From: Anaerolineales bacterium
Lineage (GTDB): Bacteria > Chloroflexota > Anaerolineae > Anaerolineales > Villigracilaceae
Assembly: GCA_020060235.1 (NCBI GenBank)
Contig: JAGVAO010000144.1
Span: 1 to 32,514 of the forward strand
Length of the DNA stretch: 32,514 nt
Reading direction: 5' to 3'
The position numbers and the translations under genes are program-made. Shown here piece by piece: positions 9,512 to 15,313 of this stretch. Position 1 is the stretch's first letter. Every line of letters starts with the position of its first letter. The notes beneath the pieces are model-generated. The model saw nothing but the letters and a program-made list of their open reading frames with translations. It searched no databases and was not told the origin of the DNA.

Positions 9512-11497
9512 ATGTTAATTCCTACCCAAATCGAACAAAAACTTGACCGTGTGCTTTTAAAGGTAAGCAAACCTGGCCGCTATGTGGGCGGTGAAGTCAA
9601 CGTCACCGTCAAAGACTGGGACAAGACCCCCATGCGCGTGGCGCTGGCTTTCCCGGATGTGTACGATATCGGCATTTCCAACGTCGGCCTGCAAATTTTG
9701 TATGACCAGGTAAACGACCGCCCCGACGCGCTGGCGGAGCGCGCCTATGCCCCCTGGGTGGATATGGAAGCCGTCATGCGCGAGGAAGGCATTCCGCTCT
9801 ACTCGCTTGAAAGTTTCCACCCCGTTCGGGATTTCGACATTCTGGGCTTTACCCTGCCCTATGAGACGCTTTTTACCAACGCGCTGAACATGCTCGACCT
9901 GGCCGGGATTCCCGTCCGCACAGTCGAACGGACGATGGAACACCCGCTGGTCATCGCGGGCGGGCACAGCACCATGAACCCCGAACCGATGCACGCCTTC
10001 ATCGATGCTTTCGTCATCGGCGAGGGCGAGGAAGTGATACACGACATTATCGATGCGGTCAAAAAAATCAAGATGTCATTGCGAACCAGGCGCGAAGTGG
10101 GTAGTGAAGCAATCTCCTCGCTGGAGGATGCAGATTGCTTCGCAACAAACCGCGCGGCTCGCAATGACCTGTTGCTCGCACTGGCGCAAATTCCCGGCGT
10201 GTACGTCCCCAGCCTGTACCGTGTCGAATATCTCGATGACGGAACCATTGCCGAGGTGAGTCCGCTGGTCGCCGAAGCGCCGAAAAAAGTGATTAAACGG
10301 CTGGTCGCCAAACTGCCTCCCCCGCCAACAAAGTTCATCGTCCCCAATATCGAAGCCGTGCACAACCGCGTTTCGGTCGAAATCATGCGCGGATGCACGC
10401 GCGGCTGCCGCTTCTGCCAGGCCGGGATGATTGTGCGCCCGGTGCGCGAACGCCCGGTAGCCGAGGTGGTTGCCGCCGCCGAGGCCGCCGTAAAAGCCAC
10501 CGGCGCCGAGGAACTGGCCCTGCTTTCGCTTTCATCGTCTGACTACACAAACATCCTTGAACTAGTGACGGCAGTCGGCGAGAAGTTCAGCGGCCAGCAC
10601 TTGAGCGTTTCGCTGCCTTCGCTGCGCATCGAGTCGGTTTCGATTGACCTGATGGAGAAAATCAAAAGCCGCCGCACGGGCGGGTTTACGCTCGCGCCCG
10701 AAGCAGCCAGCGAGCGCATGCGGCGCATCATCAACAAGTTCATCCCGGATGAAGATATCATCAACACCGCGCGTGAAATTTACGCCCGCGGCTGGGTAAC
10801 GCTCAAACTGTATTTCATGATAGGCCACCCCAGTGAAACGCTCGAAGATGTGCAGGCGATTGCCGACCTGTGCAAGCGCGTGCTGCACGAAGGCCGCAAG
10901 GTTGCCGGAAACCGCATCAAACTGAACGTCGGCGTGAGCACCTTCATCCCCAAGCCGCAAACGCCATTCCAGTGGGTCGCCTGTGACACGCCGGAGAAAA
11001 TCCGCGCCAAACAGGTCTTGTTGCGCCAGGAAATGCGCGACAAGAACATCAAACTGACCCTGACCAGCATCGAAGACAGCCTGCTTGAAGCCTGGCTGAC
11101 GCGCGGCGACCGGCGCATGGCCGAGGTCATTTACAGCGCCTGGAAGAGCGGCGCAAAATTCGACGCCTGGAACGACCAGCACCACTTCGACGCCTGGTAC
11201 GCGGCCTTCAACGAACACGGCCTCGACCCCGATTTCTACACCTACCGCCAGCGCCGCACCGACGAAATCTTCCCCTGGGACCACATCTCCGCCGCGGTTC
11301 GCAAGGAATTCCTGTTCCAGGACTTCCGCCAGAGCCTCGAAGGCCAGATTCGCATCGACTGCCGCCAGCACTGCTTCGCCTGCGGCATCCTGCCGACTTT
11401 CACCTCAGTGCGACGCGAAAATCCCGGCGACCACTGGAAATGTCCCGAAGTCAAAAGCCCGGCCCGCAAGCCGGTCGAGGCCCTGCCCGTCTTATGA
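9512..11497 (+). CDS. TIGR03960-type radical SAM protein with in-frame repeat insertion
   Basis: 661 residues. The N-terminal half resembles a B12-binding-like domain (MRVALAFPDVYDIGISNVGL). The radical SAM core has the cluster motif Cys295-x3-Cys299-x2-Cys302 (RGCTRGCRFCQAG), and a Cys-rich C-terminus ends near RQHCFACGILPTF. The family almost always precedes a TIGR03936/DUF2344 gene, as here (ATGA overlap, 11494-11497); its reaction is not established. Residues about 188-218 are encoded by a palindromic dispersed repeat (10075-10168) and interrupt the normal link between GEGEEVIHDII and LALAQIPGVYVPSLY. The frame stays open through it. The ATG at 9512 sits 6 bases after TATAAT. Confidence 0.9.
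   Translation: MLIPTQIEQKLDRVLLKVSKPGRYVGGEVNVTVKDWDKTPMRVALAFPDVYDIGISNVGLQILYDQVNDRPDALAERAYAPWVDMEAVMREEGIPLYSLESFHPVRDFDILGFTLPYETLFTNALNMLDLAGIPVRTVERTMEHPLVIAGGHSTMNPEPMHAFIDAFVIGEGEEVIHDIIDAVKKIKMSLRTRREVGSEAISSLEDADCFATNRAARNDLLLALAQIPGVYVPSLYRVEYLDDGTIAEVSPLVAEAPKKVIKRLVAKLPPPPTKFIVPNIEAVHNRVSVEIMRGCTRGCRFCQAGMIVRPVRERPVAEVVAAAEAAVKATGAEELALLSLSSSDYTNILELVTAVGEKFSGQHLSVSLPSLRIESVSIDLMEKIKSRRTGGFTLAPEAASERMRRIINKFIPDEDIINTAREIYARGWVTLKLYFMIGHPSETLEDVQAIADLCKRVLHEGRKVAGNRIKLNVGVSTFIPKPQTPFQWVACDTPEKIRAKQVLLRQEMRDKNIKLTLTSIEDSLLEAWLTRGDRRMAEVIYSAWKSGAKFDAWNDQHHFDAWYAAFNEHGLDPDFYTYRQRRTDEIFPWDHISAAVRKEFLFQDFRQSLEGQIRIDCRQHCFACGILPTFTSVRRENPGDHWKCPEVKSPARKPVEALPVL
10075..10168. repeat. 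palindromic dispersed repeat (GTCATTGCGA...TCGCAATGAC) inside a coding region
   Basis: The left arm begins GTCATTGCGA at 10075 and reaches GAAGCAATCT at 10106-10115. The right arm is its near reverse complement, with AGATTGCTTC (10132-10141) and TCGCAATGAC (10159-10168). This is the well-known CATTGCGAG/GAAGCAATCTCC palindromic repeat type found between genes in many bacteria. Here it is translated in frame as roughly 31 residues of the radical SAM protein without a stop. Confidence 0.85.
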
Positions 11498-15271: not shown

Positions 15272-15313
15272 AAATCAAAACGGCCTCCCGGTTTCGGGAG
15301 GCCGTTTTGATTT
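15272..15313. terminator. bidirectional intrinsic terminator
   Basis: A perfect 19-bp inverted repeat (15272-15290 with 15295-15313) around a GTTT loop, with a GC-rich core and A/T tails on both sides. It ends rex on the plus strand and the membrane-protein gene (15328-15771) on the minus strand. Confidence 0.93.

Follow-up and report, generated by a model that had tools for sequence, protein, structure and literature searches.

An in-frame REP-like palindrome pair in a recurrently replaced linker of a TIGR03960-family gene from the Anaerolineales

Introduction

In a member of the Anaerolineales, a pair of dispersed REP-like palindromic units has probably been inserted into a TIGR03960-family gene. 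It lies in frame in the inter-domain linker, where it would be read as 32 residues in a stretch of the protein that appears to be permissive. Rickettsia provides the best-known in-frame palindromes, and the cases from other organisms are scattered. Those of Rickettsia, the RPEs, are described as dispersed palindromes lying in frame inside the ORFs of known enzymes (PMC3733652, PMC10969869), and the sections of the former paper drawn on here state that inserts in dimer or grouped form mostly encode 20 to 30 residues (PMC3733652). The sequence analysed in the present work (the window) is a contig of 32,514 nt from a 3.99-Mb host genome in 279 contigs. The features of the window that matter here are as follows.

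9512-11497, plus strand: TIGR03960-family B12-binding/radical SAM gene, 661 aa, a single intact ORF
Residues 59-199 of the window protein: Radical_SAM_N2 (Pfam match)
Residues 289-454 of the window protein: Radical_SAM (Pfam match)
10055-10171, plus strand: recurrently replaced linker between conserved columns, window residues 182-220 (length profile and type survey)
10075-10168, plus strand: in-frame palindromic element of two REP-like units in opposite orientation, residues 188-219 (MSLRTRREVGSEAIS...RND)
10075-10114, plus strand: REP-like unit 1, GTCATTGCGA...GAAGCAATC (pattern match)
10115-10132, no strand: spacer between the REP-like units, with a small hairpin (CTCC..GGAG; fold and sequence)
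10133-10168, minus strand: REP-like unit 2, the inverted partner of unit 1 (pattern match)

The host gene and its product

The window protein scores 735 bits against the TIGR03960 profile (NCBIfam), for which the curated cut-off is 462.3, placing it in the family. The cluster motif CxxxCxxC is intact, with C295, C299 and C302 invariant in 38 aligned sequences, the window protein among them. An AlphaFold2 model of the window protein, for which the alignment took in 37 of the 80 named homologue loci, has a mean pLDDT of 88.6. Helices are predicted at residues 172-197 and 207-225, with pLDDT below 50 for residues 200-207 between them, and on this model the repeat-encoded segment would cap a helical hairpin that lies between the domains. 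The closest structural matches of the model are cobalamin-dependent radical SAM enzymes, such as MgmA and TsrM (query TM-scores about 0.4). Elsewhere in the window, a perfect palindrome with 18-base arms (AAATCAAAACGGCCTCCC..GGGAGGCCGTTTTGATTT) lies at 15272-15313 between two convergent ORFs and is terminator-like.

The palindromic element

An earlier note on this DNA, made from its letters alone, had placed a palindrome inside the TIGR03960-type gene of an otherwise intact enzyme, and both points hold: the two arms lie at 10075-10168 within the gene, and the frame runs unbroken through one ORF of 661 residues. Within the window, the 10-mer GTCATTGCGA has exact matches only at 10075-10084 (plus strand) and 10159-10168 (minus strand), and the 10-mer GAAGCAATCT only at 10106-10115 (plus) and 10132-10141 (minus). 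The terminal tag is TGTC on one unit and GGTC on the other. Folded as single-stranded DNA, positions 10060-10180 reach -31.7 kcal/mol (z -5.2), as good a value being found in none of 200 shuffled sequences, which rules out a chance palindrome.

By codon arithmetic, the element is read in one frame, free of stops, as 32 residues. The earlier note put the gain at about 31 residues. Its in-frame reading stands, residues 188-219 being encoded by the element, but a simple addition of that size does not: measured from GEGE to YVP, the linker is 64 residues long in the window protein against 42 in a short-linker congener (G001), a net gain of 22. Comparison with homologues supports the note's further proposal of a Rickettsia-like, in-frame palindromic insertion in a gene of the Chloroflexota. 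The homologues, moreover, carry no segment of similar length and conserved amino acids in place of the repeat; their linkers are short, filled with another repeat or, in a few cases, made up of other sequence. A conserved domain in the linker can be ruled out, as the homologue linkers hold no conserved segment.

A recurrently replaced linker

Of 152 family genomes searched at the protein level, 138 had a match, in some of them to paralogues or fragments only. From the family and order-level relatives, 131 loci were collected and the linker was read in 127 (124 of them in the family, the host included), the four loci without anchors being left untyped. Between columns conserved in 90% of the 124 proteins, only two places, residues 182-220 and 511-516, show length differences of more than one residue, in a profile that covers the interior between conserved columns rather than the protein ends. 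At residues 182-220 there are 9 to 48 residues and 25 distinct lengths. The variation at 511-516 is due to one genome (G019, locus L043), in which a 42-base unit holding CCCTGAGTT..TCGAAGGG stands twice in tandem, the two copies adding about 28 residues in frame. Among the named homologues, 76 of 80 have a plain linker of 37-42 residues (GEGE to YVP).

The 127 linkers fall into the following types, of which A to F are motif classes defined after the sequences had been seen; three linkers that the motif assigned to C are counted in the short class, being only 40 residues long.

Type A, REP pair: 16 of 127, in 10 genera, some with one worn unit
Type B, GTCAAAG/GACCTTC heptads: 19 of 127
Type C, AAGTT/AACCTTCC heptads: 15 of 127
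Type D, GAAAGAC/CTTTCNT heptads: 10 of 127
Type E, GTGGAAA/CTTTCCAC heptads: 5 of 127
Type F, AACGTG heptads: 2 of 127
Short linkers: 50 of 127
Other linkers: 10 of 127

The REP pair is thus found at the same site in 15 genomes besides the host, including one assembled as a single contig (G067). Its left end is read SLR in 13 of the 16 carriers and its right end RND, again in 13. The cores and inner frames differ from carrier to carrier, and the core amino acids are therefore not conserved. Eleven carriers have a common left junction after the conserved helix (MSLR, with the two worn forms SSLR and LTMR), and the other five, the window included, have another. On inspection the linkers of G079, G062 and G146 appear nested, a further repeat lying inside the heptad palindrome. 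The longest linker seen, 75 residues in G096 (L180), has worn REP ends (LTMRG ... RND) around other sequence and is perhaps a decayed or nested insertion.

Architecture and spread of the heptad repeats

Types B to F, 51 linkers in all, are made up of tandem 7-base units followed by their inverse, the units being by motif of several unrelated sequences. Identity at a lag of seven bases is 0.454 in these linkers (n=51; partly circular, as they were chosen by motif), 0.343 in short and other linkers (n=47) and 0.207 in type A. For 251 control windows taken from these genes it is 0.183, values at other lags being 0.23-0.31 in those windows. Palindromy was assessed by folding. A z of -3 or below was reached by 10 of 16 type A linkers, 18 of 51 of types B to F, 18 of 53 linkers of a second gene, HemW (described below), 3 of 47 linkers classed as short or other and, among the control windows, 1 of 120. 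When the window limits had been set differently, in a previous run, 12 of 16 type A linkers and 6 of 264 controls reached this value, with median z values of -4.4 (A), -4.8 (E), -2.9 (D), -2.4 (F), -2.2 (B) and -1.2 (C). Types B and C are weak palindromes, B moderate and C the weakest.

The heptad motifs are also dispersed, B being found in 70 and D in 78 of the 152 family genomes. Reversed controls gave three matches in all for B and many in some genomes for D, apparently to other heptads, which makes the D counts approximate. In 400 kb sampled from G067 there were 38 near-perfect inverted repeats (none in one shuffled control), just three of them heptad palindromes and none of those three inside an ORF. 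Tandem arrays at lag seven numbered 14 in this sample and were the commonest of eight periods (others 0-6; none in one shuffle). Eight of the 14 lay inside ORFs and four had an 8-base inverted partner nearby. The phenomenon reaches beyond two genes, and full palindromes in genes are uncommon in the G067 sample; their minority share there counts against a very wide claim.

A second site in HemW

One heptad locus of G067 is a HemW-like gene. Searching with HemW gave matches, some of them weak, in 144 of the 152 family genomes. The linker, taken as the stretch from YEISNW to HNxxYW, was read in 63 of 70 loci fetched (L288-L357; seven unread) and is 23 to 58 residues long among these 63, the host having the plain short form of 23. 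On inspection, most of the longer linkers hold heptad repeats, of many sequences. Lag-7 identity is 0.541 in 53 HemW linkers, a set chosen by length alone. In the PDB comparison for HemW the repeat region falls outside the alignment. HemW provides a second linker at which in-frame heptad repeats recur, their reading as insertions resting on comparison with relatives.

REP-like units elsewhere in the host and its relatives

The earlier note called for a search of the host genome for further copies, and this turned up a few units, one of them in frame in a MoeA-type gene. The unit pattern GTCATTGCGA...GAAGCAATC has five matches in the host, two being the window's own (reversed control 0), and a looser pattern has nine against two for the reversed control, seven of the nine being real units on inspection. 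Used whole as a BLAST query against the host, the 121-base stretch matched itself and no other copy, indicating that the copies have their ends in common and not their cores. A stricter pattern, GTCATTGCGAG...GCAATC, was matched in 45 of 61 genomes, including the host, with up to 139 copies and no match in any control. The REP-like repeat is rare in the host and common in its relatives. The base preceding GTCATTGCGAG is T in 54 cases and C in three (34 loci, some overlapping), and the bases after GCAATC (n=53) are TCC (29), TTC (9), CCC (8), TTA (4) and three others once each. The single Rfam match, at 18.7 bits against a gathering score of 70, was taken as chance.

In the host, a MoeA/periplasmic-binding fusion gene carries a single REP unit in frame (L001 1501-1536; contig 29, 11905-11940). 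Opposite this unit, which uses a different frame (VIARR...AIS), the nearest solved MoeA has a gap of 15 residues. In hisA (contig 49; L002 1501-1533), the 3' end of the ORF extends over a REP unit, and the C-terminus (KMSLRDALASKQS...) is therefore repeat-encoded. A UvrD-like helicase gene (contig 54; L009 about 1475-1510) has a REP-like unit in frame and is a candidate insertion; in the PDB comparison, the repeat region lies outside the alignment. Units on contigs 100 and 249 are apparently intergenic. In another genome (G027, contig 6, 17767-17843; L247, about 1500), a REP pair is apparently in frame in a 731-residue ORF that has no Pfam match, where it stands between apparent membrane segments.

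In the 400-kb sample of G067, 20 of 29 REP units are intergenic, five lie inside ORFs and four at an edge, on crude ORF calls. Inspection places the five in doubtful ORF starts or a doubtful ORF. With most units intergenic and those in ORFs doubtful, insertion into genes is not frequent.

Turnover and selection

Three pairs of sister species differ in linker type: G170 (type A) and G138 (C), G174 (C) and G139 (D), and G020 (E) and G071 (B) have flanking DNA that is 89-93% identical and linkers that are unrelated. The first pair is 0.054 apart on the protein tree, and its flanking DNA is 90-93% shared. On a quick gene tree built without the linker, type A requires 14 changes for 16 carriers (shuffled mean 15.3), type B 17 for 19 (18.0), type C 13 for 15 (14.4), type D nine for ten (9.8) and type E four for five (5.0). 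All classes together require 56 changes against 62.3 when shuffled (minimum 57 of 200). These values lie close to, yet below, those for shuffled types, and linker type is thus nearly but not fully random on the tree.

With groups named after the tree had been seen, a single clade was rejected both for the 11 type A carriers with the common left junction and for the window together with G032 (quick tree, simple model). The junction common to the 11 could reflect horizontal exchange of linkers, or one old insertion followed by many losses. In 12 pairs, dN/dS of the flanks is 0.036-0.117, pointing to purifying selection, and the carriers accordingly look functional. Taken together, comparison of the sequences establishes that the frame is open and the element missing from close relatives, that the segment is an insertion relative to relatives, that such segments recur and replace one another between sisters, and that the flanks are under purifying selection.

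Origin of the linker repeats

We suggest that the linker serves as a permissive landing place. If it tolerates additional residues, frame-keeping insertions would survive, and these might later be replaced or overwritten by other repeats; the inserted segment would be merely tolerated and the gene product presumably made. REP-like units might move as hairpin DNA by means of a REP/RAYT-type transposase. The Y1 transposase family PF01797 is represented in 147 of the 152 family genomes, with one match in the host. No complete REP-like unit was found near the 12 PF01797 loci fetched, half-motifs being present at two of them, which leaves the RAYT step without direct support. In many family genomes, perhaps including the host, the ORFs matching PF01797 are about 400-600 residues long, far above the usual Y1 transposase. 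The heptads may have another origin, for example slippage and template switching.

There are four rival accounts of the linker. A single old REP insertion, kept in some lineages, lost in others and passed between species through homologous recombination of the conserved sequence on either side, would explain why 11 of the 16 type A carriers have the same left junction, and it gains something from type D, whose linkers are 53 residues long in all ten carriers, across five genera. We nevertheless think it unlikely: the flank gene tree rejects a single clade of the 11 (single gain with many losses being compatible), the unit cores differ between carriers, five carriers including the window have a different left junction, and close pairs carry unrelated linkers. 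Alternatively, the heptad palindromes might arise in place by replication errors, 7-base units slipping in tandem and a template switch copying one arm onto the other, with selection acting only on how well they are tolerated in linkers. This we entertain tentatively, at somewhat less than even chances. The linkers of types B to F and of HemW are alike in architecture (tandem heptads, loop, inverted heptads) while their heptads are many, and lag-7 identity stands at 0.454 and 0.541 respectively against 0.183 in the 251 control windows. Type A does not fit such an origin, being a dispersed element with a common consensus and no heptad array (lag-7 identity 0.207), and the recurrence of motifs B and D in 70 and 78 of 152 genomes (the latter count rough) fits spreading instead.

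It is improbable, in our view, that selection acts on the hairpin as such, which might for instance pause translation between two domains or affect mRNA stability, with any palindrome serving the purpose. Palindromy is indeed kept despite sequence change (10 of the 16 type A linkers, 18 of the 51 with heptads and 18 of 53 from HemW have a z of -3 or below, against 1 of 120 controls), but 50 of 127 linkers are short, short and other linkers are mostly unstructured (3 of 47 at that z), and 76 of the 80 named homologues make do with plain linkers of 37-42 residues. Two pairs that set a type A gene beside a short-linker gene have dN/dS of 0.036 and 0.099, values that give no hint of relaxed selection on the short form. 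Finally, an assembly or binning artefact of a metagenome-derived genome has the 279 contigs of the host assembly in its favour and is hardly credible: the element, its frame uninterrupted, is situated 10 kb into a contig of 32.5 kb, and the same situation recurs in the single-contig genome G067 and 14 further genomes. The in-frame element of G067 argues against artefact as a general cause. Insertion and replacement at a permissive linker remains the reading we prefer.

Relation to known repeats

The likeness to RPEs, which we draw from published descriptions of them, lies in the in-frame insertion in genes for conserved proteins, seen here in the TIGR03960 gene and the host MoeA-type gene; the differences are the other phylum and the filling of one linker by several unrelated repeat families in sister species. 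The sections of PMC3733652 drawn on here also report that intragenic REP copies of R. conorii are RPE-4 and RPE-6, and that the recB genes of two Xanthomonas species carry different REPs at about the same site (PMC3733652). The CGTC-tagged REPs treated in those sections resemble the present units in being short and dispersed, often in inverted pairs, and in having a terminal CGTC or TGTC and an arm starting AT (PMC3733652), TGTC being usual here. They differ in having a stem of 8-9 bp and a loop of 4-5 bases (PMC3733652), where the present units show on inspection a 5-bp outer stem (ATTGC/GCAAT), unpaired bases and a variable inner part, and in an unpaired tail that is mostly CCA (PMC3733652), a sequence found in none of 53 cases here. 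The phyla listed there for CGTC repeats do not include Chloroflexi (PMC3733652).

Coding palindromes of Nematomorpha mitochondria are likewise described as inverted repeats inside functional protein genes; both of their arms encode conserved protein, (PMC6649704, in the parts used here), whereas the arms in the present case belong to a variable linker and are similar to dispersed repeats. Prokaryotic MITEs, as characterised in the relevant part of PMC10969869, are also small, non-autonomous palindromic elements able to fuse in frame with genes; the comparison is by description, and the present units are not tied to any known transposon. For the motif GTCATTGCGAG, the matches listed from the open-access literature included only unrelated papers, judging by title and start of abstract, and among the matches listed for heptad repeats, for palindromes of Anaerolineales or Chloroflexi and for exchange at a fixed linker there was no description of these. 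REPs within genes are thus already known; what appears to be new is the heptad class and the exchange at a single linker, no account of either having been found in the literature searched.

Conclusion

More broadly, we put at about even the chance that linkers in this family of the Anaerolineales evolve by cassette exchange, unrelated in-frame repeats (REP pairs, and inverted 7-base tandems as a class not described before) entering and replacing one another at a few fixed permissive sites, TIGR03960 and HemW being the two demonstrated here. With one linker read over 124 genomes of a single family, the gain, loss and replacement of a protein segment can be traced between sister species. The idea that selfish repeats are a direct source of protein sequence becomes testable, with two genes, many natural replicates and conserved flanks as a clean control. 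If cassette exchange is true, non-coding repeat DNA would be a standing source of new protein segments, and the patterns described here suggest that junk-like DNA may keep supplying new pieces of protein in tolerant linkers.
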